From positions 106,044 to 140,690 of the forward strand of contig JAAXJB010000059.1 in assembly GCA_012270065.1 (NCBI GenBank): DNA of 34,647 nt, written 5' to 3'. Within the stretch, counting starts at the first letter, position 1, and the number at the start of each line of letters is the position of its first letter. The DNA is from Rubripirellula sp. (lineage in GTDB: Bacteria; Planctomycetota; Planctomycetia; Pirellulales; Pirellulaceae). Of the stretch, positions 1,548 to 34,647 are shown piece by piece. Below the pieces are notes generated by a model. It was not told where the DNA came from, ran no database searches, and saw only the letters and a list, made by a program, of their open reading frames with translations. The position numbers were made by a program, and so were the translations under genes.

Positions 1548-4034
1548 GTGGCAAAACGTCGAACTCGCAGCAATACGGGCCGAAAGGCAGGATCATCAAA
1601 GTCTGGTGCCAGTCGAAGCCGGTCCCGTAACACGGAAGAAACAGAGTCGCTCTTTGATGCTCAGGATCCATCAATGGTCGCCGTTCCTCTGCGGCAGGCT
1701 GCACAGGAAAAATACCTCAACTATTCGCTGTCGGTGATCACCAGTCGTGCGTTACCGGACGTTCGAGATGGTTTGAAGCCGGTTCAGCGCCGTATCCTCT
1801 ATACCATGAGTCAGCAGGGGCTGACTTTCAGTTCCAAGCATGTCAAGTGTGCCAAGGTGGTTGGAGATGTCATGGGGCGTTTTCATCCCCATGGTGACAG
1901 TTCCATTTACGATGCTCTTGTGCGTATGGCACAGCCGTTTTCGCTACGCATGCCTCTGGTAGACGGTAGCGGAAACTTCGGCAGCGTTGATGGAGACAAT
2001 GCGGCTGCGATGCGATACACCGAGTGTCGGATGACGGCACTCGCATCGGAGATGTTGAAGGATCTTGCTACCCGAACGGTTGCGTTCAAACCGAATTACG
2101 ATGGCAGCAAAGAAGAGCCGGTTGTCCTGCCAAGTCTGGTACCCAATCTGCTGCTCAATGGAGCAACCGGCATTGCTGTTGGAATGGCCACTAACATTCC
2201 ACCGCACAACCTTCGTGAAATCTGCAATGCGTTGCTCAAGCTCCTGCATAACCCTGAGATCAAGGGTTACCAGTTGGTCGCAAATGATGCGATTCAGGGA
2301 CCCGATTTCCCGACTGCGGGACAGGTCATCAATACCAAGGACGAATTACGCGAGATCTATGCTACGGGCCAGGGAACGATCAAGCTTCGTGGAACGACCA
2401 AGTTGGTCACTCAAAAAGGAGTCAAGCTGCTGCAGGTCACCTCGATTCCATTCGGTGTCAACAAGGCGGCGATGGTTGAGCGTATTGCGGAGATCATCTT
2501 CAGTGGCAAGCTGCCGCTGGTGACCGAAGTCCGGGATCTTTCGACGGATGAAGTCCGAATTGATCTTCTTCTCAAAAAAGGTGCTGACGAGCAGAAGGTA
2601 CTTGCTTACCTGTACAAGCACACGCAGTTGCAAAACAACTTCAACGTCAACTTGACCTGTCTGGTACCGACAGAGAACCCGGAAATTGGAGCTCCGAATC
2701 GACTGAGCTTGAAGGAAATGCTTTGGCATTTCCTGCATTTCCGGCTGGAAGTGATTACCGAACGTTTGACAAACGAATTGCAGTCGCTTGAAAAACGAAT
2801 TCACATCCTGAATGGTTTCGCTCTGATTTTTGACGCTCTGGATGCCATTATCCGCATCATCAGGAAGAGCGACGGAAAAGCTGACGCTGCCGAAAAAATC
2901 ATGAAGAAATTTCCCGCTGACGGTCGTGGGCGCGGACTGGACGAGGAACAGACAGATGCCATCCTCGAATTGAAACTCTATCGCCTCGCGAGGCTGGAAA
3001 TCAATCTGATCCTCGACGAACTCAAGGAAAAGAACAAGCGTGCCCGACAGATTCGAAAGCTGCTTGCAGAGGATACGAAGGATACCAACTCCTCAGGACG
3101 TTGGCAGATCGTACGAAAGGAAATTGAATCACTCGTCAATGATTATGGAAAAGACAGTGTCGGCAAAAGGCGGACACTGATCACGACGGTGGAAGAGGAA
3201 CCTGAGTACACGGCAGAAGACTTTATCGTTGCAGAAGATTGCCATGTCCTGGTAACGACTGATGGCTGGGTAAAACGACAGAAGCAGATCGCTGACCCGG
3301 GCAAGAGCCGCTTACGCCAGGGGGACAGTGTGCTGGCATGCGTGGCTGGAAGCACCCGTTCAACGATCGGCTTTTTCTCTTCACTGGGAGTCTGTTACAC
3401 AGCTCGTATGATTGATATTCCAGCGTCAACGGGCTTTGGTGAGCCCATCCAGAAACTTTTCAAAATGAAAGATGGAGAAAAAATCGTATCGGCGATCTCG
3501 TTTGATGCCCGCGCGATGGGAGATTACCGGGAGGATCCAAAAAATCCCGAGTATTGCCCGGAGTGCCATGCACTTGCAGCGTCCACCAATGGTTTTGCCC
3601 TGAGATTCAGTTTTGAACCGTTTGCCGAAACTTCGACTCGTAATGGTCGGCGATTCGCAAGGGTTACCGGGAACGCATCAATTGTGGGTGTGGTACAAGT
3701 CGATGGAACTGAAAATCTGTTGGCTGTATCAAGAGCATGTCGAGCAATGATCTGTACTGTTGAGGAAATCAACTATCTTTCCGGGCCCGGGAAAGGAGTC
3801 ACTCTGATCCGTCTCGCCAGCGGAGACGAATTGCTTGGCTTCAAGGCTTCTACCGGAGACCGTGACCTTTTGACGGTGATGACCAACCGGGGAGCCAAGA
3901 AGACAATTTCGACAGCCAAATATCGGGTAACATCTCGAGGCGGGCGGGGCAATGAAATTCAGAAGAATGGAAAGATTTCCGAAATTGTTCAGGCGGCTCC
4001 CAAGGCTCCAGCACCGTTAGGTGAATCCTCCTGA
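1548..4034 (+). CDS. Type IIA DNA topoisomerase subunit A (GyrA/ParC family)
   Basis: This 828-residue breakage-reunion subunit of an ATP-dependent topoisomerase cuts and rejoins duplex DNA together with the B subunit encoded downstream. The start is GTG with AAGGA 9 nt upstream. Residues 1-40 form a basic, Ser/Arg-rich extension. The winged-helix core follows, with the [11 protein letters not shown] and [17 protein letters not shown] motifs, [17 protein letters not shown] near residue 113, and the Arg-Tyr pair at 156-157, where Tyr157 is the DNA-linking tyrosine. The C-terminal beta-pinwheel starts near residue 565. Its first blade has GKSRLRQG near residue 582 where gyrases carry the QRRGGRG 'GyrA box'; a related SRGGRG occurs only in the last blade, near residue 796. 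A Cys-Pro-Glu-Cys lies near residue 670. These features leave gyrase versus topo IV open. The B gene start at 4108 is 73 bp downstream, so the two form an operon. Confidence 0.93.
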
Positions 4035-4107
4035 CCTTTTGTTTATTTTTTTAACGCATCGGCCCACTTGGCTGAATTCTTATCCAGTTGACGGAACAAC
4101 CATCGAG

Positions 4108-6018
4108 ATGGCAGCAAAAAAACGATACGAAGGCGAAGACATCGTCGTACTCGAGGGGCTTGAGCCCGTTCGAAAACGTCCCGGCATGTACATCGGTGGT
4201 GTCGGCATGGCAGGGTTGCACCACTTGATTTGGGAAGTGGTCGATAATTCCATCGATGAGGCAATGAATGGTCACGCGACCGAAATCAACGTCACTCTGC
4301 ACAAGGATGGTCGCACAGTTACCGTGTCGGACAATGGTCGTGGTATTCCCGTCGACAAACATCCCAAGACGAAAAAGTCAGCGTTGGAAACTGTTCTTAC
4401 CGTTCTGCATGCTGGTGGCAAGTTTGACGGAAACAACTACAAGACTGCGGGTGGCTTGCATGGTGTCGGTGCATCCGTTGTGAATGCACTGAGCAAGGAA
4501 TTGACCGCCGTCGTCAGACGCGGTGGTGCCCAGTACAGAATGGCATTTGCCAAGGGCAAGGCAACTTCCAAGTTACAGAAACTCAAAGGGCAAGTCCGTG
4601 GTACGGGGACAAGCATCAGCTTCACACCGGACCCGACAATTTTTCCAAAAACTGAATTCGATACAAAAATCATCCGCGCAAGGCTGGAAACGGCGAGTTT
4701 CCTTCATCGCGGTGTGAAGGTCACCTACAACGATGAAGTGAACAAAAAGAAGGAGACCTTTTTTCATGAGCAGGGCATCGTGGATTATCTCGCGAAAGTC
4801 CTCAAGGAAAGGAATGCCAAAGCAATTCATGAAACACCGTTTACCCTGAGAAAGGAAGATGACTTTCGCATGGAGTTGACGCTGCAGTGGACTGAGTCTA
4901 CCGATGAGCATGTGCGAAGTTACGTCAATGGAATTCCAACAGGCAGTGGTGGTACACACGAAAATGGATGTCGCAGCGCTCTGAATAAGGCTGTTCGTAA
5001 CTACATTGATACCCACAGCCTGACCCCAAGGGGAGTCAAAATCACGATCGAAGATATTCGTGAAGGGTTGATTGTCATCTTGTCGGTCTTCATCGAAGAT
5101 CCACAATTTCAGGGACAGACCAAGGACCGGCTGAACAACCCCGAGGTACAGTCCGTGGTTGAGGCCGCGATTCGTCCCGCGATGGAGCAGTGGATGAACA
5201 ACAACCGGAGCGTTGCAGATTCGATTGTTGCACGGATCATCGCGGCCGCTCGGGCGCGCGCGGCTTCGCGTGCTGCATCCGCTGCGGTTTCTCGAAAGGG
5301 TGGTGCGAAGCGAACAATGCTGCCCGGAAAACTGAGCGATTGTGTTTCCGGGGGTAAAGGTGATTCAGAGATCTTTATTGTTGAGGGTGATTCGGCAGGT
5401 GGAAGCGCCAAGCAGGGACGCAACCGGAATTATCAGGCGATCCTTCCGCTACGCGGAAAGGTGTTGAACACTGAGAGCGCGACCCTGAAGAAGATATTGG
5501 AAAACAAGGAAATTCAGGATCTCGTTGCCGCACTCGGCTGCGGGATCGGTCCCAATCTGAATCTGGCCGACTTGCGATACGAACGGGTGATCCTGCTTGC
5601 CGATGCTGATTCGGATGGACACCACATCACGACCTTGTTGCTGACGTTCTTCTATCGTCACATGCCCGGTCTGATTGCCGCTGGGCGATTGTTCATTGGT
5701 GTGCCGCCTTTGTACCGGATCGACTTGGGAAAGGAGACTTACTGGGCGGCGGATGAAGCAGCAAGAGAGGAGGTTCTGGCTAATTACACCGGTAGAGCAA
5801 AGCCGGAAATCACCCGCTTCAAGGGGCTTGGCGAGATGATGCCCAAAGTCCTTTGGGATACAACCTTGAACCCGGAAAAGCGTCGTATCCAGAAAGTTGA
5901 GATTGATGACCAACTGGAAACGGATCGGATCATCAGCGACCTGATGGGAAGAGATGCCTCTGCAAGATTCCGGTTCATCATGGACCGTGCCGAGGATGCC
6001 GAGGCGATCGACGTTTGA
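4108..6018 (+). CDS. Type IIA DNA topoisomerase subunit B (GyrB/ParE family)
   Basis: This 636-residue ATPase subunit partners the A subunit just upstream. The ATG at 4108 is preferred over a GTG at 4021 that overlaps the A gene, because the extra 29 residues resemble no GyrB N-terminus and homology begins at the ATG. Motifs in order are LEPVRKRPGMYIG near residue 18, the GHKL Glu43 and Asn47, DNGRGIPV at 75-82, GGLHGVGASVVNALS at 115-129, and the transducer QTKDRL lysine loop near residue 335. The TOPRIM motifs are EGDSAGG with Glu426, PLRGKVLN, and DADSDG at 499-504, followed by KGLGEM. The Ser in DADSDG is ParE-like (E. coli GyrB has Val), but the rest fits either family. Planctomycetes often carry extra GyrA/GyrB-like pairs, so this may not be the sole gyrase. 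Confidence 0.94.
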   Translation: MAAKKRYEGEDIVVLEGLEPVRKRPGMYIGGVGMAGLHHLIWEVVDNSIDEAMNGHATEINVTLHKDGRTVTVSDNGRGIPVDKHPKTKKSALETVLTVLHAGGKFDGNNYKTAGGLHGVGASVVNALSKELTAVVRRGGAQYRMAFAKGKATSKLQKLKGQVRGTGTSISFTPDPTIFPKTEFDTKIIRARLETASFLHRGVKVTYNDEVNKKKETFFHEQGIVDYLAKVLKERNAKAIHETPFTLRKEDDFRMELTLQWTESTDEHVRSYVNGIPTGSGGTHENGCRSALNKAVRNYIDTHSLTPRGVKITIEDIREGLIVILSVFIEDPQFQGQTKDRLNNPEVQSVVEAAIRPAMEQWMNNNRSVADSIVARIIAAARARAASRAASAAVSRKGGAKRTMLPGKLSDCVSGGKGDSEIFIVEGDSAGGSAKQGRNRNYQAILPLRGKVLNTESATLKKILENKEIQDLVAALGCGIGPNLNLADLRYERVILLADADSDGHHITTLLLTFFYRHMPGLIAAGRLFIGVPPLYRIDLGKETYWAADEAAREEVLANYTGRAKPEITRFKGLGEMMPKVLWDTTLNPEKRRIQKVEIDDQLETDRIISDLMGRDASARFRFIMDRAEDAEAIDV

Positions 6019-25308: not shown

Positions 25309-25896
25309 CGCATTACCTCATTTTGAAAAGAAGGCCGCCGCGATCAGGCGTGCACTGGGGGGCGGAAAGTCACTCTCAGAGCAACGCTGTGCCTGGCTCC
25401 CTGCAAAACTCATTGCAAATCCAAGCCCTGGCACGGCCTTCTGCTGAATACTGATCTGTACGCAGCAGCATGAGGAGAAGTTTCACCTCATTGTTTCCAA
25501 GCTCCGGAATGATAGGAATTCACTTCCTGATTTCCGCTATTTCACACCCATAATCGAAGGATTACAGTCTTTTTTTGCCGTAAAGTATTTGCAGCAAACG
25601 GTTTATGGCATCTGTGAAACTGTCGTGACACCCGGGGCTGAACCGGACAGTTTTGGTTTCTTGGTGATTGCCCCCTCTGCGGGCGGGATTTGTCCCGCTC
25701 GAGAGACCCTGCGATCAACATGGATTGCTGCACTCGTCCTAATTTGACTAACCGGCTGAACGGTTATTACCGAAAACAAGACAAGGCAGTACCGCGCAGC
25801 TCCGTGATGGTTTTGCGCGCACATCATGCCGGATGCTCGACTTGTCGGGCGTCCCAAACCGGAACAGCGTTGTTCAACACGGAAGGAACAGAGGCG
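25309..25896. other. Divergent intergenic region, DksA-like versus FHA-protein gene
   Basis: These 588 bp contain no gene I can support. Two hairpins are visible: ATGAGG/CCTCAT at 25470-25491 and GCGGGA/TCCCGC at 25683-25698. Open codons in frame with the FHA protein extend back to a TTG at 25690, but that stretch reads as composition-poor and Cys-rich, unlike the protein, so part of this region may or may not be translated. Confidence 0.4.
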
Positions 25897-28800
25897 GTGA
25901 ATACGAACCACAACAACGGATCGCCGTTCGATGATGCTCGAAAAGCGGAACAGGATTCAGCCGGCAACCCGGGTTCTGACCAAGTCGAGGCTGTTGAGGC
26001 TGCGGGGTCGTCTTCCGCGGATCCATTGCCGGAGGTGAAACCGAGTCAGCAAGCTGTTCAGGCCATGTCTCCAGGCAAGCCTGCGATAGAACCTTCCGCC
26101 ACAGGAAGTAACTACGCAAAGTACTCAGTCGAAGGTGTCTCTTCGATACAGAAGCTGGTCCATGCGATGGAGAACACCGGGGAAGGATTTGTTGATGAAG
26201 TGATCGACATGGAGCCGCGCGAGCGGAATTCCATGGAGTTTCGCGTGACCTGTCCCGGTTCACCTGTGCGTCGTCTCCGTTTGACTGGTAACCGTTATAC
26301 CTTTGGCAATGCCGACGGCTGTTCGATTCGATTGACCGACGAGACACTTCGGCCAATGCATGCTGTCTTGTTACGTGATCATTCCAGAATCATTGTGCGA
26401 GCCTACTCTGTGCCGATTCAGGTCAATGGAACGCGAACCACTGAGGCGACTCTGACCGTTGGTGATGTACTGCGTTTGGGGCACTATCAGTTTGAGCTTC
26501 TGTCGGCGAAGCCGGTGGGAATGAATCTGTCGCCGGGATCGAATGATTCTGGTGGTGGAATCGGTTTGGGTGACGCGGCAAAGCAGTCAGGAGATGAGCG
26601 CGCGTTTAAAGGAATGCCAGGTTCCCGTCATGAAAACCGTACTGGCCGTTTTTCTGATACTGGATCAGAGGGGGCTGCCACTGAAGATCTGCTGTGGCGG
26701 GATCGCTTGCGTCGGGAAGTTGACCAGTGGCGAGAAAGGCAACTTGAATGTGATCGCCGCGAGGGACGCATCGATGAACGGGAATCCGAATTGCGGAACC
26801 GGGAAACGGAACTCTGGTCCAGAGCTGAAAATCTTCACCGCCGTGAATCGCGGTTGCAGTCCCAGGAAACAGCCAACTTCCAGTTGTACGATGAGTTTTC
26901 ACAACGACAACAGGAATTGATCACGCTGCGTGAAGAGAATCGTCTCAAAGAAGAGAGTTTTCATGCCCGCGAGATGGTGCTTCGTGACCAGGAGTTGCAG
27001 TACCGCAGTCAGCTGGAAGAGGCGACACGCCGACTTCATGAATCACAGCGACAGGCAGATGCTGCCGCCGAATCTGTTGCCGAAATGCGTGAGCAGTTCG
27101 ATTCACTCAACAACCAGATCGAACTGCTTTCAAAACAGCATCTGGAAATCGAGTCACGAGAAGTGAGTCAACGGGCAGAGCATGAAGAACTGCGCAAAAA
27201 CCTTGAGCAAGCGCGTGATCAAGCCGTTGAAAATCACGCTGCCAGTGAGACACGGAGACAGGTTGCAGAGGAACAGGCTGCTGCACTGGAACAGCAGATC
27301 GTTCAATTGAAAGCAGCTCAGGGGTCCAGCGAGTCCGAGCAACTTCAACGCTTGTCAGAAAGCGAAGCTGAAGCGGAGGCACTCAGGCAGCAAGTCGAAG
27401 AATTGCAGCGATTGGTTTCTGAAGCCAGGCATGAGGCAGAAACACTTCGAGCAGATTATGAAGAAGCTTGCTCATCCGTAAAGCAACTGGAAACTCTCGT
27501 TTCGGAAAGTCAGGACCAGGGTGTTGAGAGTCGCGAGAAGTGGATTGCTGAAACGGGTGAGTTGAGAGCTGCTGTTGAAAAACTGTCTTCGGATATGGAG
27601 CAAGCCAGTCATGAACTCAATCAGTTGCGTGACGCCAACGAAGACCTGAATCGACGTTTGACAGAAGTTCAGCAGGAACGGGATCAAGTGCGTCTTGAAA
27701 TGGACGCAAGACCTGATCAGGAAGAGTTCGATTCACTTCGTGAGCAGTTGCAGTCTGCCAACGAACGTATGGCAAATATGCAATTCGAGCATGAGCAGAC
27801 GTTGGTGAGATTGGAAGCGGCAGAGCAGAAAAACAGATATCAAACAGATCCGGAAGATGAAAACGAGAGTTACCCTGATACAGTTTTGGAGCAGTTGGCG
27901 GATGATCAGGCTGATGACGGGCCCGGTGAACCCGGCATCCCTGAAGGGCAACATGATGTCGAGGATCGGTCCATTGTTGATGAGGAAAGTCCTGAAACAG
28001 CAGTGACTGATCCACACAGTGAGCTCGAAGAACAGGGCTACAACAGTCCGACGGGACATGATGCGGAATCACTGCATGCGGATCTTGAGAAAGAGATGCG
28101 TGTGGGAGGGGAATTGCCAGATGGGGACCAGATCGTTGATGGATCACTTGCCAGTAAATTGATTCAGGATTTTGAATCGGAGGACGTGTTTGCAGCGTCG
28201 CGTTCGGAAGCGATTGAAAGTTCATTGGAGGCGTTTTCCAATCTCGCTTATTCAGGCGAAGAAAACGAAAGCTTGAGCTTCACCGGGTTCATGCGGCCCG
28301 ATTCACAAGACAATCTGGCTGATGATCAGACTTTCAATGAACCAACCGAAGAGGACTCGCGCAGCGAAATTGAGTCCAATGAGCTGAGGGACGAAACGGT
28401 CGCGGGAGGACTTGATGATTCCGGTCGACATGCCAGCGACTACGAAGATGATCCAATCGATGCTGCAGATGACGAGTACGCCACTGAGCAAGCTGTTGAT
28501 GAGACGGTATCCCATGAGTATCAGTCAACGGACAGCGATCCGGATGAACGCGTGGAAGTGGCGAATGAATCAGCGGAGGAGGAAGAGGATACCATTGAAG
28601 CCTACATGAATCGATTGCTGAAACACGTCCGAGGCGACGATGATCAGGAAGTTGATGATGTAACCGATCCGCAGGCTGTTGATTCAGGGCAAACAGACGC
28701 TCCTGATGATGAGATGCTTGAGCCCCTCGATCCCAATGCTCCCTTGGTGCCAAGGTCACTGGCGCCAGAACGGGACTCTGATCTCGATGCCATGCGTGAG

Positions 28801-29112
28801 TTGGCAAATACGTCTGCAAGGATTGCTATCAAGCGTAGTGCACGCTTGCAGTCACGCAACACACAACTCAAGGGACTGATCCGCCTGTCGTATGCTTTGG
28901 GAGCAATCTCGTGCGGTGCTGTTTGTTATTTGTACTTGACCGGTATGGTTGTGTACGTGGCTGTGATGATGACTGGAATTGTTGCTGTTATCTATGTGCG
29001 TGAAGCCATGCAGTTCTTTCAGGAAGCGAGCTATCAGTACAACGCGGCTACCAACGCGTTGCATGATGAAAACAGTTCCGTTGAAGATGACAGCGAATAC
29101 ACCGACGAATGA
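25897..29112 (+). CDS. FHA-domain, long coiled-coil, acidic, C-terminally membrane-anchored protein
   Basis: This is about 1071 residues from a GTG at 25897, chosen for an AGGA-type site about 9 nt upstream; an ATG at 25720, another at 25807 and a TTG at 25690 are in-frame alternatives. After a disordered N-terminus comes an FHA domain (about 113-205). Its recognition loop reads Gly137-Asn138 where phosphothreonine-binding FHAs have Gly-Arg, and Arg152-Pro-Met-His155 where they have Ser-Arg-x-His; the Asn-Gly of the last loop is kept. A coiled coil of about 380 residues follows (about 266-649, Glu/Gln/Arg-rich heptads). A very acidic Asp/Glu-rich region (about 650-950) comes next, then two hydrophobic segments (about 991-1035) and a short tail. 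It may be a membrane-tethered scaffold. It lies upstream of the sigma/kinase block. Confidence 0.85.
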   Translation: MNTNHNNGSPFDDARKAEQDSAGNPGSDQVEAVEAAGSSSADPLPEVKPSQQAVQAMSPGKPAIEPSATGSNYAKYSVEGVSSIQKLVHAMENTGEGFVDEVIDMEPRERNSMEFRVTCPGSPVRRLRLTGNRYTFGNADGCSIRLTDETLRPMHAVLLRDHSRIIVRAYSVPIQVNGTRTTEATLTVGDVLRLGHYQFELLSAKPVGMNLSPGSNDSGGGIGLGDAAKQSGDERAFKGMPGSRHENRTGRFSDTGSEGAATEDLLWRDRLRREVDQWRERQLECDRREGRIDERESELRNRETELWSRAENLHRRESRLQSQETANFQLYDEFSQRQQELITLREENRLKEESFHAREMVLRDQELQYRSQLEEATRRLHESQRQADAAAESVAEMREQFDSLNNQIELLSKQHLEIESREVSQRAEHEELRKNLEQARDQAVENHAASETRRQVAEEQAAALEQQIVQLKAAQGSSESEQLQRLSESEAEAEALRQQVEELQRLVSEARHEAETLRADYEEACSSVKQLETLVSESQDQGVESREKWIAETGELRAAVEKLSSDMEQASHELNQLRDANEDLNRRLTEVQQERDQVRLEMDARPDQEEFDSLREQLQSANERMANMQFEHEQTLVRLEAAEQKNRYQTDPEDENESYPDTVLEQLADDQADDGPGEPGIPEGQHDVEDRSIVDEESPETAVTDPHSELEEQGYNSPTGHDAESLHADLEKEMRVGGELPDGDQIVDGSLASKLIQDFESEDVFAASRSEAIESSLEAFSNLAYSGEENESLSFTGFMRPDSQDNLADDQTFNEPTEEDSRSEIESNELRDETVAGGLDDSGRHASDYEDDPIDAADDEYATEQAVDETVSHEYQSTDSDPDERVEVANESAEEEEDTIEAYMNRLLKHVRGDDDQEVDDVTDPQAVDSGQTDAPDDEMLEPLDPNAPLVPRSLAPERDSDLDAMRELANTSARIAIKRSARLQSRNTQLKGLIRLSYALGAISCGAVCYLYLTGMVVYVAVMMTGIVAVIYVREAMQFFQEASYQYNAATNALHDENSSVEDDSEYTDE

Positions 29113-29701: not shown

Positions 29702-30310
29702 ATGACTGGTCAGAGTGACGACGAGCCAATCAAGGAAGATGAACGTGCATTACAGTTGACCGGTGATTCCAGAATGACCCAGTCAGTCGAGTCCATCTGG
29801 CATCAGTTTGGAAGTCAACTTCGCCGGCGTGCCCGCACACGTCTGCGCCAGTATGGTCTTGTTGGGCAGGCAGAATCGATGGACATTTGCAACGATGTCA
29901 TGGCAGAGATGACGAGAGGTTTCAATGCCAGGGGAGTTACGCCAGATGACGCACTCGCTTATCTGTTGCGTGCCATTGACAATCAGGTTCTGGATACCTT
30001 TCGGCGGCTTGTCAGGCAATGTCGGGATTTTCGTCGTAACGAAGCCAAGTCCATTGATGAACTTCCGGTTGCAACTCAGGATCAGTCTCCAAGCCAGATT
30101 GCTTTGCATAGGGAAGTGATTGAACGTATTCAGGAATTACTCAATCGGGATGACGCACTGGCGGTCAGCATGATGTTGGAGAACCGTGACTGGCAGGAAA
30201 TCGGTCAGAAGCTTGGGGTCAAGGCAGATACCGTCCGGATGCGTGTCAGAAGAGCTTTGGAACGTGTACGCGAGGAAATCGGTTTGACGGATGGAGAATC
30301 CGATGACTGA
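29702..30310 (+). CDS. ECF-like RNA polymerase sigma factor, kinase-linked
   Basis: This is a 202-residue sigma-70-family protein. The start at 29702 has AAGAGG 6 nt upstream; the frame opens earlier at 29615 without a site. After about 25 disordered residues, region 2 (about 27-100) binds the polymerase and -10 DNA, with ESIWHQFGSQLRRRARTRLRQYG and the DNQVLDTFRRL helix. Region 4 (about 125-195) carries the helix-turn-helix DWQEIGQKLGVKADTVRMRVRRALERVREEIG for -35 recognition. There is no region 1.1 or 3, as in ECF factors. It overlaps the pseudokinase gene by 8 bp. Planctomycetes have ECF groups genetically linked to Ser/Thr kinases, and this gene fits that pattern. No anti-sigma gene with a zinc-binding or transmembrane signature is next to it, so kinase-dependent control is a reasonable inference. 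Confidence 0.9.
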   Translation: MTGQSDDEPIKEDERALQLTGDSRMTQSVESIWHQFGSQLRRRARTRLRQYGLVGQAESMDICNDVMAEMTRGFNARGVTPDDALAYLLRAIDNQVLDTFRRLVRQCRDFRRNEAKSIDELPVATQDQSPSQIALHREVIERIQELLNRDDALAVSMMLENRDWQEIGQKLGVKADTVRMRVRRALERVREEIGLTDGESDD

Positions 30311-31733
30311 TTCTTCCATTCTTTCTACAACAACCATTGATGGTCTCGTTCGCTGGCTGAACCGGCAGCGAAGTATCGAGGCAGTCGCTCCCCTGGTTGA
30401 TCTGCTGGAAGGACAGGAAATCAGTCGCCATGTGTTGCTGGATCTCGCTTGCATGGACTTGATGCATCAACATAGAAAAGGTCGGCATGTTCATGTTGAG
30501 GACTACATTCGCGATTTCCCGCAATTGAATCACTCCGGTGATCTGCTGGATCTGATCGATGCGGAATTGTGTGTCGCATCCGAGTTGCAAAAACCCATTG
30601 ATATTGCGGCATACTGTAAACGGTTTCCCGATTTGGCTAGTGAAATCGAGGAGCTGGCGCAACTTGATTTCAATCCAGGCATTTCTGATTTGTCCGGCGG
30701 GAGACAGGAGGTGCGTGTCGATCCGGTTCCCCACAGGGGCATGCATCGTGACTTTGCTTTGTCAACGATGAGTGATGCTGGAAGTCATTCGGACAGTTTT
30801 TCGGTCACCCCGGATTCACAAGTACCGGATGATATGACTGCAGGTGAACCTGCAGTCTCTGTCTCTGACTTGAGAGAAGATTATCCTCTGGCCATTCCGG
30901 ACTGGTTTCTGATTGATGAATGTCTGACGCGGGATCGAGATTTCTGTTTGTTGCGTGGTCGGGATAGCCTGCGTGGCGTATCCATCGCAATGAAGATCAT
31001 CCGCGCGCCTCGAGTGCTGGTGGAGCAGGAGGTGATGGAATTGCTTGACATTTGTGAAGCCGCTTCGCGCGTCCAGAATCCCCACTGGGTAGCCCCGCAG
31101 ATGGCAGCTTTCCAAATGGGATATCTGGGAGTCATTCGCCCATGGCAGTTTGTGAATTCCTGGGAACCAGCTCCACAAGCATTCAACCCCGGAGAAGCAA
31201 GTTCAGAAGAAAAAATCAACAGATCAGGCCAAAGTGATAGCTCCTCTTTTTACCCGCTGGATGACGCATGGGTGCTCAGTCGTTATCAAAATCTGGCGAA
31301 GGTTGCATTTGCAGTGGAAGCGGCACATCGGTCGGGAGCGACGCATGGTGCAATTCATGCACGGAATCTGGGAATGGATCATCGTGGGAAAGTCTGCGTC
31401 CTTGATGCTGCATCGAGTCACCTCTCCTTGCGGCGTTGGCTGATGGATGATGACTGTGGCGTTCTGAGTTTTGATGTCCGGAAGGAATTGGATATTCAGG
31501 ATGTCGTTACTCTGGTTCGCGACCTGGCATCGTGGACGCCAGGGCCGGCGACAAAAAGACTCGTGGAGCAGGTGCAGGGATCTGCCGCGGAATACCGGGA
31601 TTCGTGTTTGGCTTGTATCGGAGAAATATTGATTCAGCATGTCGACCAATATCAGGACAGTTGTCTTTCCCGCACTGAACAGCAGTCCCGATGGCGCACC
31701 AGACTTTCGCGATGGTGGTCACAGCGAGATTGA
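30303..31733 (+). CDS. Apparent pseudokinase in the ECF sigma operon
   Basis: This is a 476-residue protein. The ATG at 30303 overlaps the sigma gene by 8 bp and has GGAG 6 nt upstream. Residues about 10-125 contain the helical module seen before the kinase domain in planctomycete kinases: two sections ending in EDYIRDFPQL and AAYCKRFPDLASEIEEL. After a linker, residues about 200-470 follow a protein-kinase outline. The ATP-anchoring Lys231 is kept (SIAMKII), but the glycine loop is absent. The catalytic HRDxKxxN reads HGAIHARN at 348-355, so the catalytic Asp is missing while Asn355 remains. DFG reads DAA with Asp368. No APE or transmembrane segment is evident. It is predicted to be catalytically dead or strongly impaired, and may act as a scaffold or allosteric partner of the sigma factor or the next kinase. 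Confidence 0.8.
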   Translation: MTDSSILSTTTIDGLVRWLNRQRSIEAVAPLVDLLEGQEISRHVLLDLACMDLMHQHRKGRHVHVEDYIRDFPQLNHSGDLLDLIDAELCVASELQKPIDIAAYCKRFPDLASEIEELAQLDFNPGISDLSGGRQEVRVDPVPHRGMHRDFALSTMSDAGSHSDSFSVTPDSQVPDDMTAGEPAVSVSDLREDYPLAIPDWFLIDECLTRDRDFCLLRGRDSLRGVSIAMKIIRAPRVLVEQEVMELLDICEAASRVQNPHWVAPQMAAFQMGYLGVIRPWQFVNSWEPAPQAFNPGEASSEEKINRSGQSDSSSFYPLDDAWVLSRYQNLAKVAFAVEAAHRSGATHGAIHARNLGMDHRGKVCVLDAASSHLSLRRWLMDDDCGVLSFDVRKELDIQDVVTLVRDLASWTPGPATKRLVEQVQGSAAEYRDSCLACIGEILIQHVDQYQDSCLSRTEQQSRWRTRLSRWWSQRD

Positions 31734-31892
31734 GTGGTGCATCTGGCGATTGAATGATTGCATGATTACCTGGTTGCACGATTACCGGTACGTCAGCCGG
31801 GAATGACCGTGGCTGAAAAAGCGATTGGGTTGGATGGATCTGTTACCATGGCATGCCAACTGTCAGCGGGTTTTGTTCATGGAGACCAGTGC

Positions 31893-34448
31893 ATGCGGAT
31901 CACATGTCCCAATTGCGAGAAATCGCTGTCGTTAGGTCAGGCAAAAAAAGGTCGTTACCGTCCCAAGTGTAAATACTGTGGCGAACCGTTCGATCTGTTC
32001 ATTGAATCAGACGGGCAAGTGAAGATCCGTCAGAGAGTCGGGGGCACACAGCAGTCGGCTGATTCCAGTATGGCCGATGACCCTGGCCCACCTGCAGAGG
32101 CGGGCCGCACCATGGCGGTGATGGAAACTGGAGATCGTGAAGTTGAGATCCCTGATCGTCTGGGAGGCTATCGGATTTTGCGTCTTCTGGGACGCGGTGC
32201 GATGGGGGCTGTCTATGAAGCAAAGCAGATGTCACTTGATCGACTGGTTGCGCTGAAGACTATCCGTGGACGTCTGGCAGACAATCCTGCTTCTCTTGCA
32301 CGATTCACGCGGGAAGCTTACGCAGCAGCTCAGCTGAACCATCACAATGTCGTTCAGATTTATGACTTTGGTGAGGATGCCGGTCTTCATTTTTTCAGTA
32401 TGGAGTGGGTTCGTGGTGGTCCATTGGACCATTTGATTCGGGAGAAAGGCCGACTCGAGCCAAGGCTTGCTGTCAGCTATGCAGTGCAAGCAGCACGCGG
32501 TCTGCAGTTTGCTCATCGCCATGGCATGGTGCACCGTGATATCAAGCCCGCTAATCTTCTTTTGACCAACGATGGTGTCATTAAAGTTGCGGATCTTGGA
32601 CTCGTGAAAATTCCTGACCATGGTGATGCTGTTGCCGAACAGGATGCAGAGGTCGATCTGGCAAGTGGAACGCAGGTCACGATGCAAGGGACAGCGGTCG
32701 GAACGCCGGCGTACATGGCACCTGAACAGAGTGAGAATGCCGCTGGAGTTGATGCTCGCGCTGATATTTATTCACTTGGCTGCACACTGTTTTTCATGCT
32801 CGCTGGTCACCCGCCGTTTCAGGATACGGTCATCACAGACCTGAAGCAGCAACATGCCAACGCTGAGCCTCCGCGTCTCACCGAAATCAATCATCGCGTG
32901 CCGGAAGAAATCGAGACAATTGTTTCCAAAGCGATGGAAAAACAGGTTGAGCGAAGATATGAATCTTTGGCAGAGATGATTTTGGATCTCGAATCTTATC
33001 TTGGTGTGGCCCTGGAAAGTGATTTTTCACCAACAACCCAACAGATAGATGCGTGGGAAGCCGTTGTGACCAAATACCTTCATGCAACGCGTTCGAAAAA
33101 ATGGTGGCGATGGGCCCCGATGTTGTGCATTGCGTCTGCCATCGCGTTGACTTGCCTTGTGGTGTTGTTGGGAGGAGGTGCACGCTGGATCCTGATGGGG
33201 CTTGGTATGATCATTGGCATCATTGGTGCTGATTTGTCCTTGAATGCCAGTCTGGTTGGCAGGCCGGTCGCAACTCATGTTCGAAAGTGGCTGGGGACAT
33301 GGTCGCGGTGGGATTGGTTTCTCAACGGGTTCGGCGTGCTCACGGCATCTTTGCTCATCATGGCAGGAGGACTGTGGCCTGGTATCTTGATTGGAGTTCT
33401 GCTCGGAACAGCAACAGGATATTGCATCCATCGCTTTCTTTTTCTGCCGACCGTAAAGGCAGAGCAAAGCCCCCTCAAGGATGCCGAACAAATGATCCGG
33501 GAACTGAGGGTAGGAGGCTCCGATGAAGATGACCTGCGTTTGTTCGTGGCGCGATACAGCGGCATGGGTTGGCAGACTCTTTATGAGTCCCTGTTCGGAT
33601 ATGAGTCACTTGTGCAAATTCGGGACAAACTGCGGCGAGATTCATCATTCAACAATCCCGTTGATTTGATCTCGGTACGTGATCATTTGTGTGGTTGGCT
33701 TCGTCGAAAAACAGAGGAGCACCAGCAGATAGAGGACCATCGACGCCTCGCAGGGATTGAAGAGCGTGGATTGAAGCAGGAGGGGCTGTCGTCAGGCGAA
33801 GCACGTGACCGCGCATGGCAGATTGCTGCGGCTGTGATGGAAAATACAAGATTCGAACCGCATGCCAATGCCGGTGGTAAATCGGGTGATGCGATGGCTG
33901 TCATGCACAAAAGAGAACGCATGAAACAGATGATTGCTGATGCTCGAAGCGGCAAATACCGTCGACAACGTGAACCCTTGGCTGTTGTCCGATTTGTTCT
34001 CGGAGGTCAGACACGTTTGTTGGCCGGATGTCTGCTGATGACAGTTTTTGCATCATGGGCCTATCGCCATGGCGTGTTTGATCAATTCAAACAACTCAAT
34101 GCCATGGATACCGTGCGTCAGGGAGAGCTTGACTTGGAACAGTTCACCACCATGCTCCAGGGTGTAGCCAGTACCGGCTTGCAAGCTGAATCCAATAGCA
34201 GCCTGTTCGCTGGAACGGTGAATGGCTGGTCTGTTGGAGTGGCCGGTCTGTTGTTGATGCTCGCAAGTTTTGTTTCTGGTTGGAGGATGACACCGTTCGC
34301 TGCAGCAGCGTCGGTGATCATCCTGTTTGGCCCGAACTGGGGAATTCCCGGTATCGGTTCGCTTGCTGAATCATGGATGACTGCTGCTGCGATTGGTGTT
34401 CTGATTTATGTGCCCGGTGTGATCTGGGGAGAACGAAAAGAGGTGTGA
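31893..34448 (+). CDS. Zinc-ribbon membrane Ser/Thr protein kinase
   Basis: This is an 851-residue Hanks-type kinase. The start at 31893 has GGAG 8 nt upstream; an open frame from 31758 adds 45 codons without features. A Cys4 zinc ribbon (Cys5, Cys8, Cys26, Cys29) opens the protein. The kinase domain (about 90-370) is intact: Gly-rich loop GRGAMGAVY at 100-108, Lys122, Glu141, HRDIKPAN with Asp216 and Asn221, DLG at 234-236 in place of DFG (frequent in bacteria), then GTPAYMAPEQ. Four hydrophobic segments follow between about 405 and 520, then a 200-residue charged soluble region with long helices, then three or four more membrane helices to the end. The kinase part should be cytoplasmic. It lies 159 bp after the pseudokinase, same strand, and probably belongs to the same signalling unit. 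Confidence 0.93.
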   Translation: MRITCPNCEKSLSLGQAKKGRYRPKCKYCGEPFDLFIESDGQVKIRQRVGGTQQSADSSMADDPGPPAEAGRTMAVMETGDREVEIPDRLGGYRILRLLGRGAMGAVYEAKQMSLDRLVALKTIRGRLADNPASLARFTREAYAAAQLNHHNVVQIYDFGEDAGLHFFSMEWVRGGPLDHLIREKGRLEPRLAVSYAVQAARGLQFAHRHGMVHRDIKPANLLLTNDGVIKVADLGLVKIPDHGDAVAEQDAEVDLASGTQVTMQGTAVGTPAYMAPEQSENAAGVDARADIYSLGCTLFFMLAGHPPFQDTVITDLKQQHANAEPPRLTEINHRVPEEIETIVSKAMEKQVERRYESLAEMILDLESYLGVALESDFSPTTQQIDAWEAVVTKYLHATRSKKWWRWAPMLCIASAIALTCLVVLLGGGARWILMGLGMIIGIIGADLSLNASLVGRPVATHVRKWLGTWSRWDWFLNGFGVLTASLLIMAGGLWPGILIGVLLGTATGYCIHRFLFLPTVKAEQSPLKDAEQMIRELRVGGSDEDDLRLFVARYSGMGWQTLYESLFGYESLVQIRDKLRRDSSFNNPVDLISVRDHLCGWLRRKTEEHQQIEDHRRLAGIEERGLKQEGLSSGEARDRAWQIAAAVMENTRFEPHANAGGKSGDAMAVMHKRERMKQMIADARSGKYRRQREPLAVVRFVLGGQTRLLAGCLLMTVFASWAYRHGVFDQFKQLNAMDTVRQGELDLEQFTTMLQGVASTGLQAESNSSLFAGTVNGWSVGVAGLLLMLASFVSGWRMTPFAAAASVIILFGPNWGIPGIGSLAESWMTAAAIGVLIYVPGVIWGERKEV

Positions 34449-34615: not shown

Positions 34616-34647
34616 ATGGATGTATGGATGTATGGATGTATGGATGT
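34616..34647. repeat. 8-bp tandem repeat at the right edge
   Basis: The unit atggatgt occurs four times exactly and runs into the end of the window, so its true length is unknown. It is in non-coding DNA about 170 bp past the kinase stop. The unit is not a multiple of three, so length changes would shift any frame crossing it. Confidence 0.9.

Follow-up and report, generated by a model that had tools for sequence, protein, structure and literature searches.

Planctomycetes are rich in kinases and in extracytoplasmic function (ECF) sigma factors, and the wiring of these parts is largely obscure. For the closest described systems, direct phosphorylation of an ECF factor is reported by a neighbouring kinase, both in EcfP/PknT (PMC8999054, PMC8103513) and in EcfK/PknS, where the sites include positions in the σ2–σ4 linker (PMC13147305). 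Both systems fall in ECF43, one of the ECF groups linked to Ser/Thr kinases (STKs), and a table in PMC8999054 gives ECF59, ECF61, ECF62 and ECF217 as STK-linked groups with planctomycete examples. Here we analyzed a 34,647-nucleotide stretch of a Rubripirellula sp. genome (assembly GCA_012270065.1, contig JAAXJB010000059.1, positions 106,044 to 140,690 of the forward strand; hereafter the window), in which the gene for an ECF-type sigma factor is followed by genes for a pseudokinase and for a zinc-ribbon membrane kinase. Like the STK-linked ECF groups, with which it was compared by description, the window has an ECF sigma gene beside a Ser/Thr kinase gene and no recognised anti-sigma gene; unlike them, it has an adjacent partner without the catalytic Asp and, in addition, a membrane kinase from a different family. 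We propose, with belief and doubt evenly balanced, that the locus is an STK-linked ECF module whose catalysis has shifted from cis to trans, the pseudokinase being an adaptor that docks the sigma factor for the trans kinase.

The three genes lie on the plus strand, as do the domains and motifs described below. The sigma gene (29702–30310, ATG to TGA) encodes 202 aa, the pseudokinase gene (30303–31733) encodes 476 aa without a predicted membrane segment, and the kinase gene (31893–34448) encodes 851 aa. These coordinates bear out the 8-bp overlap of the first two genes, the 159-bp gap before the third and the common strand given in the preliminary description. The middle protein had no Pfam or NCBIfam match at E 1, and a PDB sequence search returned one meaningless match (E 0.4). 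Its AlphaFold model, built from 18 sequences, had a mean predicted local distance difference test (pLDDT) score of 74.8, with the kinase region mostly at 76–97 except for an insert near 292–317. In Foldseek comparisons the model matched PDB protein kinases (best E 4.8e-8), including the pseudokinases PAN3 and mycobacterial Rv3910, and in hhalign comparisons a profile of the domain and one of 21 kinases outside the lineage aligned at E 2.1e-18 across 225 columns; the set of 21 includes L215 (without an N-terminal domain match) and L023 (no sigma gene in its flank). Both comparisons assign the domain, at about residues 195–455 (30885–31667), to the kinase fold; three orthologues also gave weak Pkinase matches (E 2e-4 to 3.5e-3), under the cut-off.

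To read its residues we used the congeneric pseudokinase alignment (A1) and a broader one (A4). A scan of genome contigs with the single protein yielded no relative, and a scan with the sigma alignment yielded 22 loci; A4 holds 17 of them, leaving out L090 (a fragment), L101 and L105 (fused), L104 (too distant) and L106 (sigma end only). The earlier statement that the catalytic residues are lost holds for the HRD Asp, the HRDxK Lys, the glycine loop and the FG of DFG, but not for K231, the VAIK lysine (30993–30995; invariant in A1 and at least 90% in A4), E252, N355 or D368, the DFG aspartate, which is kept as D-A-A (31404–31406; invariant in A1 and A4). In the window's protein H348-G349-A350 (31344–31352) stands in place of HRD. 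The HRD Asp is replaced by A, G or S in all 14 congeneric rows, three of which are cut by contig ends, and by A, G, S, N or T in 10 of the 11 rows from other genera. In A1 and A4 the alpha-C Glu, His-Gly, loop Asn and DFG Asp are invariant, and in A4 so are His360 and a hinge reading Arg-Pro-Trp. The VAIK Lys is nearly so, a distant Roseimaritima row lacking it.

Ahead of this domain lie an all-helical N-terminal domain (N-domain; residues 1–125, 30303–30677; AlphaFold pLDDT 84 for residues 1–130 alone) and a disordered linker (about residues 126–191, 30678–30875; pLDDT <50 for 124–191). The N-domain profile matched 105 of the 247 genomes of the order, and among the matches listed most open reading frames (ORFs) exceed 600 codons. 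All 25 distinct N-domain proteins examined outside the lineage were kinases keeping the HRD Asp (one as HFD), in agreement with the earlier remark that planctomycete ECF-linked kinases are usually active; the 25 are the best-scoring loci rather than a random sample, with L027 left out (no N-domain match; HRD intact) and the duplicate loci L018, L022, L024 and L133 counted once. A sigma gene, found by its own profile, was present in the fetched flank of 21 of them; in 10 it shares the strand of the kinase gene, and in 11 it faces the other way. Profile comparisons were run on trimmed domains, which removed the influence of fused proteins. They matched the pseudokinase domain to the ordinary N-domain/sigma-pair kinases at the E of 2.1e-18 given above, against 4.4e-8 for the neighbouring kinase, whose profile is shallower; the control, the N-domain against the same outside kinases, gave E 0.24. 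Because the match to sigma-linked kinases is the stronger, an origin of the pseudokinase by duplication of its neighbour is less likely. Since the N-domain is shared and all 25 outside kinases keep the HRD Asp, it appears that the usual sigma partner died here and that a kinase of a mostly free-standing family joined it; by its appearance, the pair goes back to a sigma-linked N-domain kinase whose death was confined to a single lineage of Pirellulaceae. The window's genome also carries a second sigma–kinase pair (G000:C100:50412-53453, or L215:1913-4954) with an intact kinase in a 721-codon ORF, a natural active comparator.

We then considered how the three genes are distributed. Among 22 genomes of the genus, the sigma gene was found in 15, the kinase gene in 15 plus a truncated start in G008, the pseudokinase gene in 14 and the N-domain alone in two. 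All three genes share one contig in 10 genomes, contig ends cut the locus in G008, G002, G011 and G015, and none of the three was found in G004, G007, G010, G016, G019 and G021, three of which are <90% complete. The order recurs in related genomes and no contig contradicts it; separation of the genes in close relatives was looked for and not seen, the locus being present in 16 of the 22 genomes (14 with the pseudokinase and two fused). In other genera, on contigs named Roseiconus, Stieleria, Rhodopirellula and Roseimaritima, the sigma and pseudokinase genes stay paired, with no membrane kinase in the fetched flank except in K23_9 and G188, where it is next door, and in G029, which has the trio. 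A Ser/Thr kinase gene thus adjoins the sigma gene in this genus, K23_9, G188 and G029, and in 11 of the 12 g72 genomes only the pseudokinase gene does. The three-gene unit of the preliminary description is therefore the state of this genus and a few others; elsewhere there are often two genes, with the kinase apart.

Presence and absence are nevertheless matched across genomes. Among the 33 genomes listed for the four genera g1, g62, g69 and g72 (each at least 90% complete), 28 genomes have both a lineage N-domain gene, as a pseudokinase in 26 and fused in two, and the membrane kinase (E <1e-85 in 26; 1e-35 and 1e-43 in the two g69 genomes). At least five genomes (G021, G007, G016, G165 and G177) have neither part, and the complete match lists for these genera contained no genome with one part without the other. 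By simple counting the chance of such co-retention is 1/C(33,5) = 4.2e-6, a figure that weakens once kinship is considered.

A further indication came from two congeners. In G014 and G017 a single ORF (959 and 941 codons) encodes the N-domain, the active kinase and the membrane region of that kinase in one reading frame; the pseudokinase domain and the zinc ribbon are absent, and no other copy was found at the cut-offs used. The two fused proteins come from separate metagenome assemblies and share 85% of residues, so misassembly is unlikely. The kinase tree nests the fusion inside the three-gene clade (supports 97/93 and 93/92), with the fused kinases on a long branch (0.65), indicating that the fusion is derived. 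That two relatives join the N-domain to the active kinase suggests that the dead kinase is an adaptor between the sigma factor and the active kinase. Together, co-retention and natural fusion back the preliminary view that the active kinase works with the pair.

The third protein is, as had been described, an intact zinc-ribbon membrane kinase of another architecture. Its N-terminal ribbon (CPNC...CKYC, 31893–32027) matched Zn_ribbon_4 at E 0.022, short of the cut-off, but has clear Cys pairs that recur, and the ribbon's own profile matched 19 of 20 fetched relatives, the one miss (L181) starting at a contig end. The kinase domain (32169–32963; Pkinase E 1.3e-48; HRD at 32532–32540) has, by sequence, an intact VAIK Lys, alpha-C Glu, HRD, Asn, DFG/DLG and APE, and the Lys, Glu, HRD, Asn and DLG are invariant in 14 rows. 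The membrane region (33003–34445) shows seven hydropathy windows, some overlapping, and is hydrophobic at residues 408–505 and 776–846 with a soluble stretch between. In L039, L040, L041 and L043 the stretch that joins the zinc ribbon to the kinase domain carries many Thr-Val/Ile/Leu-Asp/Glu units (G013 has some nine), none of which were seen in the window's copy; it looks like a stretch for multi-site phosphorylation or FHA docking.

The sigma factor is a weak but real ECF factor with regions 2 and 4 only, as judged from its matches to TIGR02937 (E 6.7e-12) and Pfam Sigma70_r4 (E 1.2e-5), both over the cut-off, and to Sigma70_r2, below it. Its matches occur in 15 of the 22 genus genomes. The window's genome (G000, 7 Mb) has 39 sigma region 2 matches at E 0.01, among which this factor is the second weakest. 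In region 2.2, E58-S59-M60-D61 (29873–29884) takes the place of DAED, with the acids at ends 1 and 4 kept and Ser at 2. The register was set by alignment to other sigma factors (plus-strand rows of one set), which moved it from QAES, an earlier candidate that would have implied an EcfP-like loss of charge. E-S-M-D is invariant in the 14 sigma rows of alignment A3 and occurs in the G188 and G029 rows, all gathered without the motif; the contig scan with the sigma alignment included ESMDICN as a seed. A set of 36 lineage sequences picked by the letters SMD was left out of account, its agreement with the motif being circular. Position 4 of the motif is D or E in all 42 readable other sigma sequences. 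In the linker between σ2 and σ4, P-S-Q is invariant in the 14 A3 rows and is preceded by Ser or Thr. Ser59 and, in this linker, Ser129/Ser131 are candidate phosphorylation sites.

Taken as an adaptor system, the locus could work as follows; its binding and phosphorylation steps, and the sign of their effect on the sigma factor, are proposed from sequence comparison. In the ordinary planctomycete module the sigma partner is a single protein in which an active kinase domain comes after a helical N-domain, and this kinase would act on the docked sigma factor. Here the partner has kept the N-domain, and its kinase domain, having died, would have become an interaction module. The pseudokinase would be made by translational coupling with the sigma factor, the gene overlap being the observed part of this idea: with starts as placed here, sigma and partner genes share 1 to 11 bp in 17 of 18 unfused loci and stand 8 bp apart in the remaining one. 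The N-domain would then bind the sigma factor and the pseudokinase domain the zinc-ribbon membrane kinase, bringing the kinase to the sigma factor. On a signal through its membrane part, the kinase would phosphorylate the docked sigma factor (at Ser59 or Ser129/Ser131, for example) or the adaptor, and phosphorylation would free or activate the sigma factor. Where N-domain and kinase are fused, the adaptor step would be needless. We hold rather more tentatively the fuller claim that the sigma factor is controlled by a pseudokinase–kinase pair, in which the sigma factor's own kinase lost catalysis and became a dedicated adaptor recruiting a free-standing membrane kinase, with the two-species fusion as a natural bypass.

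Several observations weigh against the adaptor account. The five empty genomes may represent fewer independent losses. The N-domain gene and the kinase gene lie on different contigs or >0.5 Mb apart in both g69 genomes and in 11 of the 12 g72 (Rhodopirellula/Stieleria-type) genomes, so that in the latter the kinase is not near the sigma gene. Membrane-region homologues of the kinase occur in 60 of 170 family genomes (at least 90% complete), and 18 of the 20 regions fetched around such kinases (7.8 to 15 kb) contain no sigma gene, which makes the family mostly free-standing. Moreover, 32 family genomes have a kinase homologue without a pseudokinase match at the cut-offs used (among them G029, which has a decayed pseudokinase relative beside the kinase); dependence thus runs one way, and the membrane kinase has other work. 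As for the fusion, the smaller sigma plus N-domain tree does not settle its place, and the joint loss of pseudokinase domain and ribbon counts as one event, because a single fusion-making deletion would remove both. Only 10 of the 25 outside N-domain kinases have a same-strand sigma gene in the flank. The eleventh row from other genera, L104, which is the G029 locus, is more decayed: its Lys and Asn are replaced, yet an Asp stands at the HRD position. Finally, the ECF43 (EcfP-type) loss of the acidic DAED motif was not found: E-S-M-D keeps both end acids, so that an EcfP charge switch is not indicated.

The alternative that fares best, although we consider it rather unlikely, is that the pseudokinase is a soluble anti-sigma factor that holds the sigma factor via its N-domain until the membrane kinase phosphorylates the pseudokinase or its linker. 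In its favour, sigma/anti-sigma pairs are typically coupled as tightly and paired as steadily as the sigma factor and its partner are here. The disordered linker has a Ser, S167, that is kept in this genus (A1), and none of the three proteins has a recognised anti-sigma domain. The N-domain model, however, has no significant match to any PDB fold, anti-sigma folds included (best E 0.62; none at E 0.001); hits at E >0.6, cyclins and TPR proteins among them, are meaningless, and an anti-sigma fold for the N-domain was rejected. A known anti-sigma domain was likewise not found, with no Pfam match at E 1 and no PDB match of the N-domain model at E 0.001. Elsewhere this N-domain is carried by active kinases, which speaks rather for docking to a kinase. 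The preliminary description had offered a docking or an anti-sigma-like partner; docking is the better half of that suggestion, and the anti-sigma half found no positive support.

An improbable alternative is that the membrane kinase is a mere neighbour and that the pseudokinase alone controls the sigma factor, for instance as a nucleotide or ligand sensor. The distant kinases of the g69 and g72 genomes, where sigma and pseudokinase genes are paired in the loci seen, and the mostly free-standing habit of the kinase family speak for this view, and the retained Lys, Glu, Asn and DFG Asp would make nucleotide binding possible. It sits poorly with 28 genomes having both parts, five having neither and no mixed case in four genera, with the natural fusion of the N-domain to the same kinase, and with the kinase adjoining the pair in K23_9, G188 and G029.

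Still less would we expect the kinase domain to be a dying relic without a role, with only the N-domain of importance, although it is absent from G014 and G017 and strongly decayed in L104/G029. Ratios of nonsynonymous to synonymous substitution (dN/dS; NG86) for the pseudokinase domain were about 0.21, 0.28 and 0.23 in three Stieleria-type pairs, 0.35 in G006/G011 and 0.16 in G005/G009 (where dS is 1.4, near saturation); those of the whole active kinase were 0.13 in G006/G011 and 0.17 in G179/G182. The pseudokinase evolves faster than the active kinase (0.35 against 0.13 in G006/G011), as a relic might, but its domain is under purifying selection, and the invariant motifs are kept across g1, g62, g69 and g72; by these ratios it is being maintained and is not decaying. 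Some atypical kinases keep weak phosphotransfer or other nucleotidyl transfer, and an unusual activity of this kind, to which the retained VAIK Lys, alpha-C Glu, loop Asn, DFG Asp and invariant His360 might contribute, is most improbable here given the replacement of the HRD Asp by A, G, S, N or T, the loss of the glycine loop and the conversion of the hinge to an invariant Arg-Pro-Trp.

The remaining features of the locus concern gene starts, transcription and neighbours. A ribosome-binding site can be seen ahead of each of the two downstream genes. The sequence GGAGA directly 5′ of the pseudokinase ATG (30303) backs that start, and GGAGA-[C/T]CAGT[G/A]C-ATG at the kinase start (31893) is common to the relatives G005, G009, G006 and G020; longer alternative starts are possible for both genes. 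Promoter-like sites on the plus strand and terminator-like sites in the 159-bp gap were no more numerous than in shuffled sequences, and neither was found. The three genes likely share one transcript. Upstream of the sigma gene, at 25690–29112, lies a gene for a protein with an FHA domain, a long coiled coil and C-terminal membrane segment(s). Of the 16 loci from the genus or K23_9 that include upstream DNA, 15 have it beside the sigma gene (none within 3.9 kb in G015); it occurs there as a neighbour but was not found at seven kinase loci of other genera. We dropped it as a partner in an MviN-FhaA-like set, because the FHA region matches 73 of 170 family genomes and is also present in G021, G007 and G016, which have none of the three genes. 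Downstream of the kinase gene, ATGGATGT is repeated four times without mismatch in each of two arrays spaced by about 120 bp, one at 34616–34647 (L048:12660-12691) and one beyond the window (L048:12815-12846), preceded by a degenerate TTTCAGA repeat. Genes for type IIA topoisomerase A and B subunits, whose ORFs overlap by 14 bp, occupy 1548–6018. In L095 (4098–9808) the sigma–pseudokinase pair follows genes for two PQQ beta-propeller proteins, a receiver-domain-like protein and a YdcZ-type exporter; the same clusters as in the L095 row occur in L093, L097, L098 and L103 (Rhodopirellula/Stieleria-type), the families having been scanned in L095 only.

The locus offers a defined trio, a natural fused control and related named genera with the pair (Stieleria, Roseiconus and Rhodopirellula), which together allow a direct test of the idea that a partner of a sigma factor can give up catalysis and serve as an adaptor. 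If the adaptor account is true, it would represent a JAK-like division of labour in transcription control, the hinge Arg-Pro-Trp, the His-Gly loop and the Asp-Ala would define a pseudokinase family of their own, and counting a kinase next to a sigma gene would misread some such systems. We found no description of a pseudokinase paired with a sigma factor in planctomycetes in the open-licence literature. A 2025 review lists seven bacterial pseudokinase families (ActPs1-3, GLW, CP1, DYD and DLHK; PMC12599244), and its main text contains neither "sigma" nor "planctomyc". Like members of those families, the window protein has a Hanks-fold domain without one or more catalytic residues, and one CP1 member likewise lacks the HRD Asp and keeps the Lys and DFG Asp, but every CP1 pseudokinase has a link to COG3899, and the group occurs mainly in cyanobacteria and proteobacteria (same source). 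MviN (Rv3910), whose structures 3otv and 3uqc are among the fold matches of the window model, belongs to ActPs3 and differs in that its VAIK Lys, HRD and DFG are all degenerate (PMC12599244) and in having no sigma factor.

The window protein resembles the planctomycete sigma-linked N-domain kinases, having the same N-domain, a sigma gene nearby and a pseudokinase domain that aligns best to them; unlike it, all 25 examined keep the HRD Asp. In mycobacteria the MviN pseudokinase, with PknB and FhaA, is acted on by an active Ser/Thr kinase, and in the eukaryotic JAK JH2–JH1 arrangement pseudo and active kinase domains work as a pair. The catalytic loop H-G-x...N and the retained VAIK Lys are JAK-like; the window's parts are separate proteins, and the comparison covers the kinase fold. 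Unlike factors of the EcfP type, the sigma factor keeps the DAED-like end acids. We therefore file the system as a variant of kinase-linked ECF control, with a partner lacking the catalytic Asp and an added membrane kinase.

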